A stretch of DNA of 64,000 bases from Sphingopyxis sp. H050. GTDB taxonomy: Bacteria; Pseudomonadota; Alphaproteobacteria; Sphingomonadales; Sphingomonadaceae. Under the pieces are notes generated by a model. That model saw only the letters and a list, made by a program, of their open reading frames with translations, was not told the DNA's origin and made no database searches. The stretch is from positions 372,001 to 436,000 of the forward strand of contig NZ_LNRZ01000002.1 in the NCBI RefSeq assembly GCF_001468265.1, read 5' to 3'. A program made the translations under genes and the position numbers. Shown piece by piece: positions 31,127 to 36,595 of this stretch. Position 1 is the stretch's first letter; each line of letters starts with the position of its first letter.

Positions 31127-32320
31127 TCAGAGGCCGAGCACCATCTTTGCGATGATGTTGCGCTGAATCTCGTTCGATCCCCCGTAAATCGTCGTCTTGC
31201 GCATGTTGAAATAGGTCGGCGCAGCGCGATGTGCGTAATCGGGACCGATCGGATGCTCGTTATCGCCTTCGCCGAAGCCGCGAAAATAGGGCGCGCCATA
31301 ATGGCCGACGGCTTCGAGCGTCAGCTCGGTCAGTCGCTGCTGGATTTCCGAGCCCTTGATCTTGAGCAGGCTCGATTCGGGGCCAGGCCCCTTGCCCGCA
31401 TTGGCGCCGGCAAGGCTGCGCAACTCGGTGAATTCGAGCGCGGTCAGGTCGACCTCGAGTTCGGCGATCTTGCGCTTGAAGAAGGGATTTTGAAGCAGCG
31501 GCTTGTCGCCGTCGAGTTCGGTACGGGCGATCGACTTGACCTTTTCGACCCCGCGCTTCGATGCGGCGACGCCGGCAATGCCGGTGCGTTCGTGCGCCAG
31601 CAGGAACTTGGCGCAGGTCCAGCCTTTGTTCTCCTCATAGACGCGCTGCGACTGCGGCACGCGGACATCCTCCAGCCACACCTCATTCACCTCATGCTCC
31701 CCGCCCAGCGTGATGATCGGGCGCACGGTGATGCCGGGCGACTTCATGTCGATCAGGAGGAAGCTGATGCCTTCCTGCTGCTTGGCCTCCTTGTCCGTAC
31801 GGACGAGGAAGAAGCCCCAGTCGGCATATTGCGCCATCGTCGTCCACGTCTTCTGGCCGTTGACGATATAGTCGTCGCCGTCGGGAACCGCCGTCGTGCG
31901 GAGCGAGGCAAGGTCCGAACCCGAGCCGGGTTCCGAATAGCCTTGGCACCACCAATCCTCGCCCGACAGGATGCGCGGCAGGAAATAGGCCTTCTGTTCG
32001 GGCGTGCCGAAGGTGTAGATCACCGGGCCGACCATCGCGAGGCCGAAGGGCATCAGGCGGATGCAGTCGGCGCGTGCGGTCTCTTCGGACCAGATGAACC
32101 GCTGTGTCGGGGTCCAGCCGGTGCCGCCATATTCGACCGGCCAAGCGGGCGCGACCCAGCCCTTCTTGTAGAGCACCTTGTGCCATGCGAGGAAATCTTC
32201 TTTGCTGAGCTCTTCGCCCTCATCCTGCTTCCCGCGAAGCTCGGCGGGATAATTCTCGGCGATGAACTCGCGCACTTCTGTCTGGAAGGCGATATCTTCC
32301 GGGCTGAATTCCATATCCAT
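31127..32320 (-). CDS. Acyl-CoA dehydrogenase family protein (subunit 2)
   Basis: 397-residue flavoprotein of the acyl-CoA dehydrogenase family. The central motif is WWCQGYSEPGSGSDLASLRT with VNGQKTWTTMAQYADW (FAD binding), and the C-terminus carries TTIYGGSNEIQRNIIAKMVLGL in part (YGGSNEIQRNII). The residue matching Glu376 of medium-chain enzymes is Gly; the Glu in LLAHERTGIAG is a candidate base at the isovaleryl-type position. ATG 32320 follows GGGAG by 9 nt. Together with the downstream gene it may form one heteromeric enzyme. A LiuR-like operator lies 41 nt upstream. Confidence 0.92.
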   Translation of the reverse strand: MDMEFSPEDIAFQTEVREFIAENYPAELRGKQDEGEELSKEDFLAWHKVLYKKGWVAPAWPVEYGGTGWTPTQRFIWSEETARADCIRLMPFGLAMVGPVIYTFGTPEQKAYFLPRILSGEDWWCQGYSEPGSGSDLASLRTTAVPDGDDYIVNGQKTWTTMAQYADWGFFLVRTDKEAKQQEGISFLLIDMKSPGITVRPIITLGGEHEVNEVWLEDVRVPQSQRVYEENKGWTCAKFLLAHERTGIAGVAASKRGVEKVKSIARTELDGDKPLLQNPFFKRKIAELEVDLTALEFTELRSLAGANAGKGPGPESSLLKIKGSEIQQRLTELTLEAVGHYGAPYFRGFGEGDNEHPIGPDYAHRAAPTYFNMRKTTIYGGSNEIQRNIIAKMVLGL

Positions 32321-32346
32321 TGCGATTCTCCCAAGGGCACTGGCGC

Positions 32347-32376
32347 CTTTATAGAAGGCGCTCACGTTTACGTAAA
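32347..32376 (-). promoter_or_regulatory. LiuR/MerR-like operator with promoter for the acyl-CoA dehydrogenase pair
   Basis: On the minus strand TTTACGTAAACGTGAG (32376-32361) matches the palindrome TTTACGT-NN-ACGTAAA at 14 of 16 positions; I recall this as the site of LiuR, the MerR-type regulator of branched-chain amino acid and fatty-acid catabolism. A TATAAA (32352-32347) lies 17 nt after TTTACG, so the site overlaps the -35 and spacer as MerR-type sites do. The rest of the gap 32377-32528 shows nothing. Confidence 0.5.
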
Positions 32377-32528
32377 GGTAAGTTGCGAACCGCAACCATT
32401 GCAGCGAGACTGCGCCGACCGCCGTGGCTTGTCCAGCGGGTCAACCGGGAAAATGACGATGCGCGGAGCTATCGCGCCAATGGCGACGGGTCCATGCGGG
32501 GAGAGGCGCGAGCGGTGCGGCGAAAAGG

Positions 32529-33407
32529 CTAGGCGCGGGTCAGGACGATGACCGCGCCGTCGCTGGCATAGGCGCTGCGGCGCTCCGCGATCGACAGCAT
32601 CACAGGAATGGCGGCGCCTTCGCGGGTTACCAGCATCGACGCGATGCGCGCCGGTTCGCCGGAGCGGAACACCTCCTCCAAGGCTTCGGCAAAGCCCTGA
32701 CGGTATGCGACCGCAAGCAGCGCGGAAAAGCGAACCCTTCGGATCGCTGCGGCATCGACCCCGACCATTGCCGTCAGCGCGTCATTGGCATCCTCGATGG
32801 CTTCGCGCACCGAAATGCAAGCCCGCCCCACGCTGCCTTGCGCCTCGATCGCGACCGCAAGCGCGCGATGGATGTCGTTGCTCGCCATGCCTTCCATCAC
32901 CGAGCTGATATCGCGCAACATGATCGCGCCGCCGACCGGCAACGGCACCAGGTCGACGCGCGTCCAATGCCGCGGCCGAAGCAGACCCGGGACCTCGCCC
33001 GAAAAGCGTTCGCGATAATCGATCATCCGGTTGATGTGGCTGAGCAGGACGCTCCCGCGTAGGCCGGGAATCGTATCGGCGAGAGGCTTTCCAGAAACAT
33101 CGGCGGCCGCACATTCGATCATATCGCTCGCTGCCGGATTGAGCGTCGCGATCCGCAAGGCCCGATCGACGATGATCACGCCGTCGCGTGTCGCCTCGAA
33201 CACGCTGGGGAGCGAGGCTTGCACTTGATCCTGCCCGCAGCCGCCGCCGTCCAGCCGCCGATAGTCGTCGAGCGAGATCAGCACATGTGCGTCCCTGCCA
33301 TGATGCGTTACGACAACGGGCTTGCGCGCCGCCTGCAAGCGCCAGCTTGCGAAGCCCCTGATGAATTCCGCCGCCGACACGCGCTGCGGCTCCTGCGCAC
33401 TTGCCAC
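32529..33407 (-). CDS. PAS-domain regulator with Phd/YefM-like N-terminus
   Basis: 292-residue soluble protein. Residues about 8-52 (RVSAAEFIRGFASWRLQAAR, then PVVVTHHGRDAHVLISLDDYRRL) read like a Phd/YefM antitoxin DNA-binding domain: the xSAxEF start, the turn VVxTxHGRxxxVLxSLDDYxRL and the spacing fit. Two PAS-like domains follow (SLPSVFEATRDGVIIVDRAL at about 66, and IEDANDALTAMVGVDAAAIR at about 200). No toxin gene is adjacent. GTG 33407 is preceded by AGGAGG at 5 nt and is preferred to TTG 33455. It lies next to, and on the same strand as, the acyl-CoA dehydrogenase genes. A sensory transcription regulator is the best guess. Confidence 0.8.
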   Translation of the reverse strand: MASAQEPQRVSAAEFIRGFASWRLQAARKPVVVTHHGRDAHVLISLDDYRRLDGGGCGQDQVQASLPSVFEATRDGVIIVDRALRIATLNPAASDMIECAAADVSGKPLADTIPGLRGSVLLSHINRMIDYRERFSGEVPGLLRPRHWTRVDLVPLPVGGAIMLRDISSVMEGMASNDIHRALAVAIEAQGSVGRACISVREAIEDANDALTAMVGVDAAAIRRVRFSALLAVAYRQGFAEALEEVFRSGEPARIASMLVTREGAAIPVMLSIAERRSAYASDGAVIVLTRA

Positions 33408-33497
33408 CCCTGCCTCCTCTATTGCCTCTCCTCCCTTATTTGCAGGCCGCGGCAAGCGGTGGCCGGAATGTCGATCCGTTCCGGCATCGATCCGGCG

Positions 33498-35126
33498 TCA
33501 GACCAGCTTGGCCTTGCCGCAGCGCAGGGCATTTACGCGGGCGTCGGCCTCGCCGATATGGACGCCGAGCGTGCCGGTGATGCTCTGGAGCAGCCCGTCG
33601 AGCACCGGGGCCGCAGCGCTGACGGTCGCGCCGACGAGAGACGACAGCGAATTCGCGTTGATTCCGCGGCCGAGGACATTGACCTTGAGGTCGATCCGGT
33701 CGGCGAGCGATTTGGCGGCGCCCGCTACCAGTCCGGTGCTCTCGACCGTCCTGACCCTGCCCGCATCGATGTCGGCGCGGGAGAAGGGGGCGGGCTTTTC
33801 ATTGAGATCGGACAGAACCAGCTCTGCCTTGCCCTCGACATTGGCGAGGGGCAGCTTGAGGAGCTTGGCCGGCCCGGGATCGACCTTTCGCTGCATGTCC
33901 TGGAAATCGCCGTTGCCGACCTTGCCGATTGCGAGCGTGGCGGGAGAGGTCGTGACGCCCAGCGCCACCGCGGTGCTGCCAATATTCGCGCAATCGATGT
34001 CGGTGATGCGCGCCGCCGCCGAACCAAGTTCGGCGAACACCGGGATTTCGACGGTGGCGAGCGGCGTCGCGACCTTGGCGTCCAGCTTGATCCGGACCTG
34101 CGCGGTGCGGACGACCACCTGATTGTTGTCGGTGATCGCGATCAGCGGCGAATGCGCCGGCGACTCACCGATCAGGAGTGCAACGTTGACGGCCGTTCCG
34201 CCGGGCAATCCCGCAGCGACCGACAGATCGACCTGTCGGTTCGCGTTGGCAAGCAGAAGCATCGAACGCACGAGGCTGAGGGCATTGACGTTCACCGGAT
34301 TGGCCTCATCGACGCGAATGCCTGACGAACGCGGGCCGAGATCGATTGCGCGCGATGGGAACAGCCCGGTCGGAACGGCGCTTGCCGCCAATTTGCCGAT
34401 CGCGCGCGCGGCGTCGCCGTCGCTGGACTTTGCCAGCGCCGACAGGACTTGCGGCAGCGTCGCCCGCGCATCGAGCGTCTGGCCAAAGGTCAGCACGTCG
34501 GCATCGAGTTCGGCGCGGAGCGCATCGGAGAAGGCGAGCAGGTCGATGTCGGCGTTCGCGAGCGCATTATAATCCATGACCGACAGATTGACCTGACTTC
34601 CGGTCAGCGCCGACAGCACCGCGTTGGGAACGCCGCCGTGCACCGCCGCCACGCGCGAGCCCAGCGAAAAGGCGGCATAGCCACGCCGCGCTCCGGTCGC
34701 CGACGCGCCGATGACGCTTTCATCGCGCCCGGTCAGGAAGCTGCCGAAATAGAGCGGGCGGTCGCGCGTCAGGCGGATACGAACGGCGTTGGGCGACGCA
34801 CCACCGGGGGTGAAGCGCTGTTCGGCCTGGATGCCTGGATCGGGCGTGTAGGTGCCGGGCGTCAGCGCAGCAATGCGGATACCGCAATCGCAGTTCGCGG
34901 CGATGATCCGTTCGGCCGCGGCGCGTTCTCCACCCGGACGCGCTGCTGCCGCGAGCGCTGCGGCATCGGCGATACCCTGAAGCTTGCGGCGGTCGAGATA
35001 ATGCGAGCCGAGATCGACCGCAAGCGCGGCCGAGCCAATGAGCATGGTCAAGGCGGCGGCCGAGGCGATGCTGATGCTCGCGCGGCAGTCGCGCCGGAGG
35101 GTCCGAAAGAAACGGGTCAGTTTCAT
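33498..35126 (-). CDS. TadG-like pseudopilin-associated protein
   Basis: 542-residue protein with a TadE/TadG-type N-terminus: basic lead RFFRTLRRDCRAS, then one hydrophobic helix SIASAAALTMLIGSAALAVDLG and the DRRKLQGIADAAALAAAA motif seen in TadG. The rest is a long periplasmic region (DUF2134-like) rich in Ala and Leu, with cysteines in ANCDCG and DCANIG. No complete vWA MIDAS is recognised. The start is ATG 35126, 2 nt after the tadE stop. No other Flp/Tad pilus gene (cpaF, tadB, tadC, rcpC) is in the window. Confidence 0.85.
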   Translation of the reverse strand: MKLTRFFRTLRRDCRASISIASAAALTMLIGSAALAVDLGSHYLDRRKLQGIADAAALAAAARPGGERAAAERIIAANCDCGIRIAALTPGTYTPDPGIQAEQRFTPGGASPNAVRIRLTRDRPLYFGSFLTGRDESVIGASATGARRGYAAFSLGSRVAAVHGGVPNAVLSALTGSQVNLSVMDYNALANADIDLLAFSDALRAELDADVLTFGQTLDARATLPQVLSALAKSSDGDAARAIGKLAASAVPTGLFPSRAIDLGPRSSGIRVDEANPVNVNALSLVRSMLLLANANRQVDLSVAAGLPGGTAVNVALLIGESPAHSPLIAITDNNQVVVRTAQVRIKLDAKVATPLATVEIPVFAELGSAAARITDIDCANIGSTAVALGVTTSPATLAIGKVGNGDFQDMQRKVDPGPAKLLKLPLANVEGKAELVLSDLNEKPAPFSRADIDAGRVRTVESTGLVAGAAKSLADRIDLKVNVLGRGINANSLSSLVGATVSAAAPVLDGLLQSITGTLGVHIGEADARVNALRCGKAKLV

Positions 35127-35128
35127 GA

Positions 35129-35551
35129 TCAATCCACCGGCAGTTCGAAAGTCGCACGCGCGCGGATGATATTGCCGGGCGACGGGACGAACGACGATCG
35201 GAGGAAGCTGACTTCCGGAACGGTGTAGGCGACCGCAACGGTCACAGCTTCGCTGGTTTCCGACACCGCAACCGCGCGCGTCGCGGGCGAAAAGCCGTCG
35301 ATGCTCGCCATGCTGCGGTCGACTGCACGCGCAGCGATAGCGCGCCGCTCGGCGGGGTCGAGCCCGACGATCGCCGCGCGTGCGCCGTCGTTCGCCGACT
35401 GTTGTACCGCATGCGCCAGCATGAAATATTGGCCATAGACCAATATGCCCATGGCGAGCGCGAGGAAGAGCGGCAGCACGAGCGCCATCTCGACGATGGC
35501 GGCGGCGCGCTCGTTGCGGCAGAGCCGCGCAAGAAAAATGGAACCCTTCAT
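35129..35551 (-). CDS. TadE family pilus assembly protein
   Basis: 140-residue pseudopilin of the Flp/Tad system. The processed-helix signature is NERAAAIVEMALVLPLFLALAMGILVYGQ in part (AAAIVEMALVLPLFLALA), with the conserved Glu of the class III prepilin motif; the rest is a small periplasmic domain. ATG 35551 gives the usual short basic N-terminus; ATG 35563 is possible. It pairs with the tadG-like gene 2 nt downstream. Confidence 0.88.
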   Translation of the reverse strand: MKGSIFLARLCRNERAAAIVEMALVLPLFLALAMGILVYGQYFMLAHAVQQSANDGARAAIVGLDPAERRAIAARAVDRSMASIDGFSPATRAVAVSETSEAVTVAVAYTVPEVSFLRSSFVPSPGNIIRARATFELPVD

Positions 35552-35710
35552 GCGTCGCACCATGGCGCGGCGGCGATGAAGGTGACGTCGCAGTCTCGCG
35601 ACAATGAATTTACATAATTTGCGAACGGGAAAGTGCGGCAAAACGTCGAAAAAGCGAAGTCGTCACCGCCGCGTTAATCGCGCGGCGACGACCCGATGGC
35701 GAAAATGCGA

Positions 35711-36595
35711 TTATTCGGCAGGCTCTTCGGCCGCGAGCTTGTCCTGCGTGCGCAGGTCGAAATCCGACGCGTCGTGACGCTCGTGAAGCTGACTCGCGGG
35801 ATCGCCCATTACGCGATTGACCATCCGGCCGCGTTTTACTGCGGGGCGCTCGGCGATCTGATCGGTCCAGCGGATGACATTCTTATACTCCTGGACCTGC
35901 AAAAACTCGCCGGCGTCATAAACGAGCCCTTTGACCAGCGCGCCGTACCAGGGCCAGATCGCCATGTCGGCGATCGTATAGTCGGTGCCCGCGATATATT
36001 CGCTCTCGGCCAGGCGCCGGTCGAGCACGTCGAGCTGGCGCTTCACTTCCATCGCGTAGCGGTTGATCGGATATTCCTGCTTCGTCGGTGCATAGGCATA
36101 GAAATGGCCGAAACCGCCACCGAGGAACGGCGCGCTGCCCATCTGCCACGTCAGCCACGACAGCGTCTCCGCGCGCTTCGCGGTCTCGGTGGGCAAGAAG
36201 GCGCCGAACTTTTCGGCAAGATGGATCAGGATCGCGCCCGATTCGAACACGCGGATCGGCTCGGGGCCGCTGCGGTCGACGAGGACCGGGATCTTGCTGT
36301 TCGGATTGGCGGCGACATAGCCGCTCGAAAACTGGTCGCCGTCGCCGATCTTGATGAGCCAGGCGTCATATTCTGCGCCGTTATGCCCCGCCGCGAGCAG
36401 CTCCTCGAGCAGCACGGTGACCTTCACGCCATTGGGGGTGCCGAGCGAATAGAGCTGGAGCGGATGCTTGCCGACCGGTAGCTCCTTGTCATGCGTCGGG
36501 CCAGCGATCGGGCGGTTGATGTTCGCAAAGCGCCCGCCGCTCTCCTTGTCCCAGGTCCAGATTTTGGGCGGCACATATTCGGTCTGGTCGGTCAT
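35711..36595 (-). CDS. yghU: YghU-type glutathione S-transferase (disulfide-bond oxidoreductase)
   Basis: 294-residue nu-class GST that uses two glutathiones for disulfide-bond and organic-peroxide reduction rather than conjugation. The N-terminal extension KIWTWDKESGGRFANINRPIAGPTHD in part (GGRFANINRPIAGPT) holding the catalytic Thr/Asn region, the thioredoxin fold (LQLYSLGTPNGVKVTVLLEE, NPNSKIPVLVD, ESGAILIHLAEK) and the C-terminal helical domain (YTIADMAIWPWYGALV) are all seen. AGGAG lies 7 nt before ATG 36595. Confidence 0.93.
   Translation of the reverse strand: MTDQTEYVPPKIWTWDKESGGRFANINRPIAGPTHDKELPVGKHPLQLYSLGTPNGVKVTVLLEELLAAGHNGAEYDAWLIKIGDGDQFSSGYVAANPNSKIPVLVDRSGPEPIRVFESGAILIHLAEKFGAFLPTETAKRAETLSWLTWQMGSAPFLGGGFGHFYAYAPTKQEYPINRYAMEVKRQLDVLDRRLAESEYIAGTDYTIADMAIWPWYGALVKGLVYDAGEFLQVQEYKNVIRWTDQIAERPAVKRGRMVNRVMGDPASQLHERHDASDFDLRTQDKLAAEEPAE

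Follow-up and report, generated by a model that had tools for sequence, protein, structure and literature searches.

Phd-PAS, a protein of Sphingopyxis sp. H050 in which a Phd/YefM antitoxin-type module is followed by two PAS domains, is probably (at a probability of about 0.6) a one-component regulator that controls neighbouring surface-adhesion genes through its antitoxin-type DNA-binding domain. Its gene lies in the window, the 64,000-nucleotide stretch of DNA analysed here (Table 1). The interpretation is based on observed features: the domains of the protein, its predicted fold, its conservation, the lack of an adjoining toxin gene, the recurrence of adhesin genes as neighbours, and a common upstream motif. 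A preliminary description of this DNA had proposed that a DNA-binding module was captured to make a one-component PAS regulator, perhaps of the adjacent acyl-CoA dehydrogenase genes. The joining of a Phd module to PAS domains without a toxin gene stood up to analysis, and such a toxin-less module joined to PAS sensors is probably a one-component regulator; the dehydrogenase target did not hold.

Table 1. Features of the Phd-PAS locus, in positions of the window
Feature	Positions	Strand	Remark
Acyl-CoA dehydrogenase	31127..32320	-	earlier suggested target; not supported
TTTACGTAAA palindrome at dehydrogenase promoter	32367..32376		apparently independent of Phd-PAS
Phd-PAS-PAS gene	32529..33407	-	292 aa, GTG start
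Second PAS domain, residues 194-291	32535..32828	-	PAS_9 match, AlphaFold2 model
First PAS domain, residues 76-166	32910..33182	-	PAS_4 match, AlphaFold2 model
Phd/YefM-like module, residues 8-52	33252..33386	-	Pfam/NCBIfam above cut-off, fold, conservation
TadG-like gene (Tad + Tad_C domains)	33498..35126	-	proposed target, probable co-transcribed partner
TadE-like gene	35129..35563	-	proposed target; PF07811 over cut-off
Motif CGCAAATTATGTAAA, candidate operator	35609..35623	-	46 bp (or slightly more) before tadE

The GTG start codon at 33407 is preceded by GAGGAGG, and the minus-strand reading frame ends at 32529. Domain searches agreed with the preliminary description, which had read a Phd/YefM pattern at about residues 8-52 and two PAS domains behind it. 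Pfam PF02604 (PhdYeFM_antitox) matched residues 19-52 at 31.3 bits (cut-off 29.8; E 1.8e-7) and NCBIfam TIGR01552 (phd_fam) matched residues 28-52 at 21.9 bits (cut-off 20.8); PAS_4 (E 6.5e-14) and PAS_9 (E 3.1e-7) likewise passed their cut-offs. The layout is that of a one-component regulator, with a sensor and a DNA-binding-type domain in one chain and no kinase or receiver domain among the Pfam matches of the 292 residues. A search against defence families gave no match.

The full-length AlphaFold2 model has a mean pLDDT of 90.4 and a pTM of 0.58, which leaves the arrangement of the domains uncertain, though the domains themselves are well predicted. Its N-terminal elements are strand 8-11, helices 12-17 and 19-26, strands 31-35 and 38-43, and helix 46-52, and two PAS folds lie at about 76-166 and 194-291. 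In the domain search and the model, residues 59-292 consist of helices and PAS domains and lack a C-terminal toxin-neutralising tail. Fold searches with the whole model gave PAS folds only among the matches listed, and the Phd part, residues 1-58, was therefore modelled separately (pLDDT 87.8). Comparison of this N-terminal model with PhdYeFM structures, a check named in the preliminary description, ranked antitoxin folds at the top, DNA-bound ones included. With Foldseek, Phd/YefM/RelB-type antitoxins made up the first 43 of the best 50 entries, at modest E values (best 1.2e-3, for 2a6q; none of the entries listed reaches 1e-3). With the VIA fold search, antitoxins were the first 24 of the best 50 entries, the best at Z 8.6 (2odk) and the first non-antitoxin at Z 3.4; P1 Phd on its operator (4zm0/4zm2) scored Z 7.4-7.5, and a YoeB-YefM-DNA complex Z 7.2. 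A sequence search of solved structures gave weak matches to RelB (E 0.003) and YefM (E 0.05), ranked below designed Pizza repeats that are themselves chance matches.

Conservation of the protein across 18 orthologues peaks in the Phd module, which argues that this module is more than a chance resemblance. Its mean pairwise identity is 0.92, with 30 of 45 residues invariant, compared to 0.66 for PAS1 and 0.68 for PAS2, and R17, F19, P30, H36, and G37 are invariant across 36 sequences down to 27% identity. A search for the Phd-PAS architecture, also suggested in the preliminary description, found that the fusion recurs: it is full-length in 58 of 80 Sphingopyxis genomes and present at distant loci as well. 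Two more Sphingopyxis genomes (G010 and G034) have a C-terminal match alone, to residues 174-291. A genome scan found 39 loci with 59-68% identity, of which 35 are in Sphingopyxis, and 11 further, more distant loci. Among 385 genomes of the class, every match at E 1e-15 from outside the family starts at model position 38 or later and so is PAS-only. Nine plasmid records matched, one of which, a Sphingobium megaplasmid homologue, covers >80% of the query and adjoins YadA and a chaperone-usher cluster. Eight stretches of viral contigs fit a pattern, and none was confirmed as a Phd-PAS relative. Shorter Phd-PAS fusions occur at two loci (L102 and L105), in Fulvimarina manganoxydans and Caulobacter ginsengisoli; that of F. 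manganoxydans has 169 residues and one PAS region by Pfam. Two Sphingopyxis genomes carry a second Phd-PAS copy (L051 and L153), which adjoins a TonB-receptor-like ORF (by eye) and not tad genes.

We next consider the neighbouring genes. The TadE/TadG-type neighbours in the window match PF07811, PF13400, and PF09977 above cut-off, and the gap from tadG to Phd-PAS is about 90 bp there, with a range of 87-125 bp when 16 Sphingopyxis loci (L035-L050) are included. TadG adjoins Phd-PAS in 16/16 of these loci, in the order CoA-transferase, GST, tadE, tadG, phdPAS, dehydrogenase 1, dehydrogenase 2, TonB receptor, FecR, FecI, judged over the stretches that were fetched. This order is kept across all 16, and synteny within the genus therefore cannot name the partner. 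Judged by its neighbours (GST, CoA-transferase, and dehydrogenases) and by the Flp and TadE matches, the locus does not hold a full Tad machine, which would comprise Flp pilin, ATPase, and platform genes; Flp matches lie on contig 5 and other TadE matches on contig 7 of the source genome. A scan of 32300-35800 for sigma-70-type promoters found none.

The same 58 of 80 Sphingopyxis genomes hold full-length Phd-PAS and TadG by comparison of the two lists, a co-occurrence that may be mere linkage, since one deletion at L054 (read by eye) removed the whole of tadG together with a piece of tadE and the N-terminus of Phd-PAS. At about 10350-10920 of L054, the start of tadE is fused to the second PAS domain in an open hybrid ORF (by eye). 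Among 397 genomes of the family (E 1e-40), Phd-PAS occurs in 53, this TadG subfamily in 42, and both in 33, counting in the 53 and the 33 one genome (G866) whose match begins at residue 59, so that the Phd part is absent there. Thus, 33/42 TadG-subfamily genomes also have Phd-PAS (Fisher p 3e-26, phylogeny ignored). Where TadG is present and the two genes are not adjacent, as judged from coordinates, 8/17 genomes have Phd-PAS, compared to 20/355 without TadG (p 6e-6, phylogeny again ignored).

Outside Sphingopyxis we counted 75 loci. Seven were dropped beforehand: L098 and L103 (short contig; 46 aa match), L101, L106, and L160 (the same places as L053, L097, and L104), and the Sphingopyxis paralogues L051 and L153. 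The shorter fusions L102 and L105 were included, and near-identical pairs were kept (e.g., L097/L100, L116/L117, L122/L124, L166/L167). Tad or YadA genes lie within 3 kb of Phd-PAS in 38 of the 75 loci, on the opposite strand in 31/38: a tadE-tadG pair in 23 (opposite strand in 16) and a YadA-type trimeric autotransporter in 15 (opposite strand in all 15). Pfam found TadE or Tad domains in 8/8 proteins tested from four distant Tad loci. Of the 15 YadA loci, 11 were tested with Pfam, and all 11 have a YadA anchor above cut-off (nine in one batch, 6/9 with a stalk domain too, plus L055 and L104); the call in L168, L171, L174, and L176 comes from a home-made profile alone, and the class includes L149 and L151 by manual addition. 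An adhesin neighbour was likewise present in 12 of 18 held-out loci fetched later (6 Tad and 6 YadA); the pattern itself had come from the first sets, and the held-out loci are new genomes, some of them closely related to those of the first sets. A quick maximum-likelihood tree, with support given by SH-aLRT alone, was built from 62 proteins. In it, the YadA-linked members identified by that stage, six in all, formed three separate pairs (SH-aLRT 100 each), two of which fall among Tad-linked relatives at joining forks with SH-aLRT 90 and 94.

An element like TGTAAAATACGCAAAA is common to the tadE upstream regions of 16 Sphingopyxis loci, and YGYAAAWTNYGYAAA, a pattern drafted with the site in view, has its single exact match in the 4.36 Mb genome at the tadE site. 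A motif matrix trained on these 16 regions only was scored against dinucleotide shuffles. For the tadE upstream regions of 13 distant Tad lineages, p was <0.05 in 9/13 and the combined p was 2e-10; this set excludes L117, L124, and L112, whose inclusion (16 loci) gives a combined p of 2e-11. By contrast, 134 upstream regions of other genes at the same loci gave 6.7% <0.05 and a median of 0.51, and in 2000 random draws of 13 control regions the Fisher statistic never exceeded 53, compared to 99 observed. The control had 100 shuffles per region and the tadE regions 400, which sets the floor of the control p at about 0.01; this inequality narrows the gap between 53 and 99 but does not close it. 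In six held-out loci the motif was weak (combined p 0.014; single p 0.15, 0.13, 0.21, 0.037, 0.025, and 0.84, the last from a region that is possibly misplaced). The palindrome YGYA-WWW-TRCR, proposed post hoc as the operator, was rejected, as it occurred in 0/6 held-out loci (0.03 expected by chance).

Unlinked tadE genes were examined from 15 fetched regions, 7 of which gave no TadE hit and dropped out. Where Phd-PAS lies elsewhere in the genome, five regions gave a combined p of 7e-4 (the motif was strong in two, marginal in one, and absent in two), compared to 0.28 for three regions from genomes without Phd-PAS. The YadA intergenic regions scored p 0.02, 0.065, 0.26, 0.12, 0.005, and 0.01, which is at most suggestive of the motif there. 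Upstream of Phd-PAS genes linked to rpoD (see below), 3/22 regions were <0.05 (combined p 0.02); start placement is crude for these genes, and we therefore make no motif claim for them. From sequence comparison, we consider it likely that tadE upstream regions have a cis element in common, and we hypothesize that Phd-PAS may recognise it, in which case the motif would be its operator. A strong hairpin, GCGGCGTCG...CGACGCCGC, is seen by eye between the motif and the tadE start in L038, L040, L043, and L050 among others, and is possibly a terminator or leader structure.

The motif results also bear on an alternative in which the Phd module serves only for dimerisation or protein interaction, and Phd-PAS acts on adhesins post-transcription or signals through some other partner. 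DNA binding by Phd-PAS is predicted only, the held-out motif result is weak, and some homologues adjoin rpoD instead of adhesin genes, all of which favour this alternative. We nevertheless judge it unlikely, because the best conserved part of the protein is the module with which Phd and YefM bind DNA, and because the upstream motif is common to tadE regions.

Neither a Tad nor a YadA neighbour was found in 37 of the 75 loci, 19 of which belong to a second Phd-PAS clade located directly downstream of dnaG-rpoD (genes named by eye). This clade comprises 22 loci (L128-L134, L136-L138, L140, and L142-L152), 21 of them of genus code g70, and its Phd module reads HRG, RRG, or QRG where seen, compared to HHG. 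The three clade members other than these 19 have a YadA-type neighbour, in addition to the six YadA-linked members in the tree. At L118, L119, and L120, Phd-PAS is present and the tad genes are absent or cut to a short match. L053 adjoins an outer-membrane-barrel-like ORF (by eye), and L123 adjoins an RTX-repeat protein (Pfam). At L175, a YadA gene lies 6 kb off, beyond a transposase-like ORF. The 19 of 22 rpoD-clade loci without an adhesin neighbour, together with the 18 loci outside the clade that have neither adhesin, speak for a general one-component regulator with its main targets elsewhere and with adhesin neighbours as retained linkage. This explanation is quite improbable in our estimate, in that orientation varies by genus, two unrelated adhesin classes recur, and an adhesin gene beyond 3 kb accompanies the lack of a near one in just 1 of the 75 stretches (L175; scored with home-made profiles, which missed two YadA genes).

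The preliminary description had also stated that no toxin gene adjoins Phd-PAS, and this was confirmed in the window, where the neighbours are the TadG-like gene on one side and an acyl-CoA dehydrogenase on the other. For contrast, we chose 10 stand-alone Phd-like genes among the genome-search hits. All 10 have a small ORF beginning within 10 bp of their end, and 9/10 of these ORFs match a toxin family: 5 PemK (all below the curated cut-off of that family), 1 Fic, and 3 PIN. The tenth has no Pfam match and resembles the PemK ones by eye. Elsewhere, the source genome has ParE matches and PIN-like and PemK-like ORFs. These, with the Phd fold, are what an orphan antitoxin neutralising an unlinked toxin, with the PAS domains as a stabilising tail, could draw on, but we find that explanation very improbable, given that the PAS domains sit where the toxin-binding tail would be, that the three stand-alone Phd genes of the genome each precede a PIN-like or PemK-like ORF of their own (by eye), and that the recurrent neighbours of the fusion are adhesin genes.

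Control of the downstream acyl-CoA dehydrogenases, as first suggested, has a very small chance of being correct, even though the dehydrogenase is the next gene on the same strand in the window and dehydrogenases lie downstream in 16/16 Sphingopyxis loci (L035-L050). The gap, about 130-210 bp in the window according to which start codon is used, ranges from 143 to 1520 bp in these loci and is 1.2-1.5 kb in 10/16; in both loci read, an opposite-strand gene for a metallo-beta-lactamase-fold hydrolase (by eye) fills it. This gene lies at about 8100-9180 in L035 and at 8530-9624 in L041, and is absent in the window. Moreover, the dehydrogenase promoter has its own palindrome, TTTACGTAAA, exact in 14/16 Sphingopyxis loci and the window, and kept in L054, which has lost the Phd module; this palindrome resembles LiuR-type operators. 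Finally, the link is absent beyond Sphingopyxis, as tblastn at 1e-10 found the dehydrogenase in 0/77 further loci.

For Phd-PAS as a regulator of adhesion genes, we propose the following mechanism. The N-terminal Phd/YefM module would dimerise and bind DNA near the promoter of the adjoining adhesion gene, here that of tadE-tadG and elsewhere those of yadA-type autotransporters. The two PAS domains, which occupy the place of the toxin-neutralising tail of an antitoxin, would sense a cytoplasmic signal and thereby change DNA binding. By analogy with YefM, Phd-PAS is probably a repressor, and the candidate site about 46 bp before tadE would suit repression. In Sphingopyxis, tadE and tadG precede the regulator gene on the same strand, and the latter, if co-transcribed, is probably the third gene of its target operon, so that Phd-PAS would also control itself; outside Sphingopyxis, the regulator is mostly encoded on the strand opposite to the adhesin gene. 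More tentatively, and at somewhat less than even odds, an antitoxin DNA-binding module may have been domesticated in Sphingomonadaceae into signal-sensing factors for adhesion that switched partners several times between Tad-type and YadA-type adhesins and act even when unlinked; this last proposal derives from the motif upstream of unlinked tadE genes where Phd-PAS lies elsewhere.

Antitoxins are usually viewed as one member of a pair that controls growth. In Phd-PAS, the DNA-binding half apparently parted from its toxin, was coupled to PAS sensors, and stayed conserved within one bacterial family, often beside adhesion genes. If Phd-PAS binds the promoters of those genes, it would define one-component regulators of a new class, show how parts of toxin-antitoxin systems can turn into ordinary transcription factors, and offer a way into surface attachment in sphingomonads. 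Both Phd/YefM domains and one-component regulators with PAS domains are already known; as far as titles and abstract openings in the open-licence literature show, a Phd-PAS protein has not been described, and the combination of Phd with PAS and its tie to two adhesin classes appear to be new.

Among known systems, alphaproteobacterial PHD-SMa0917 (PemK/MazF-like) toxin-antitoxin pairs are described in the 2009 toxin-antitoxin survey, from whose main text the word PAS is absent (PMC2701414). The stand-alone Phd relatives are similar to these pairs and include genes of 80-95 aa followed by PemK-like ORFs, which we infer to be of the SMa0917 type; Phd-PAS differs from the pairs, which have a toxin gene and no PAS. 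With the Phd/YefM antitoxins P1 Phd and E. coli YefM, Phd-PAS shares a family match and a predicted fold, including that of the DNA-bound structures 4zm0, 4zm2, and 6l8e, but it has no adjoining toxin, is 292 aa long, and has PAS domains in place of the neutralising tail. In the yefM-yoeB system, according to passages of PMC7730913, YefM N-termini bind palindromes overlapping the promoter; unlike for YefM, the candidate motif upstream at the Phd-PAS locus is not TGTACA. The order of a DNA-binding domain, PAS-A, and PAS-B recalls the bHLH-PAS factors (ARNT, BMAL1, and HIF), whose PAS folds match as well; their DNA-binding domain is unrelated, and the analogy is one of layout only. PpsR/CrtJ regulators have a helix-turn-helix (HTH) domain at the C-terminus. 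Phd-PAS is like them in joining PAS and a DNA-binding domain in one chain, and when the whole model was searched with Foldseek, the top match was PpsR lacking its HTH (4hh2, E 4e-14), but the DNA-binding part of Phd-PAS is N-terminal and of the Phd type, not an HTH.
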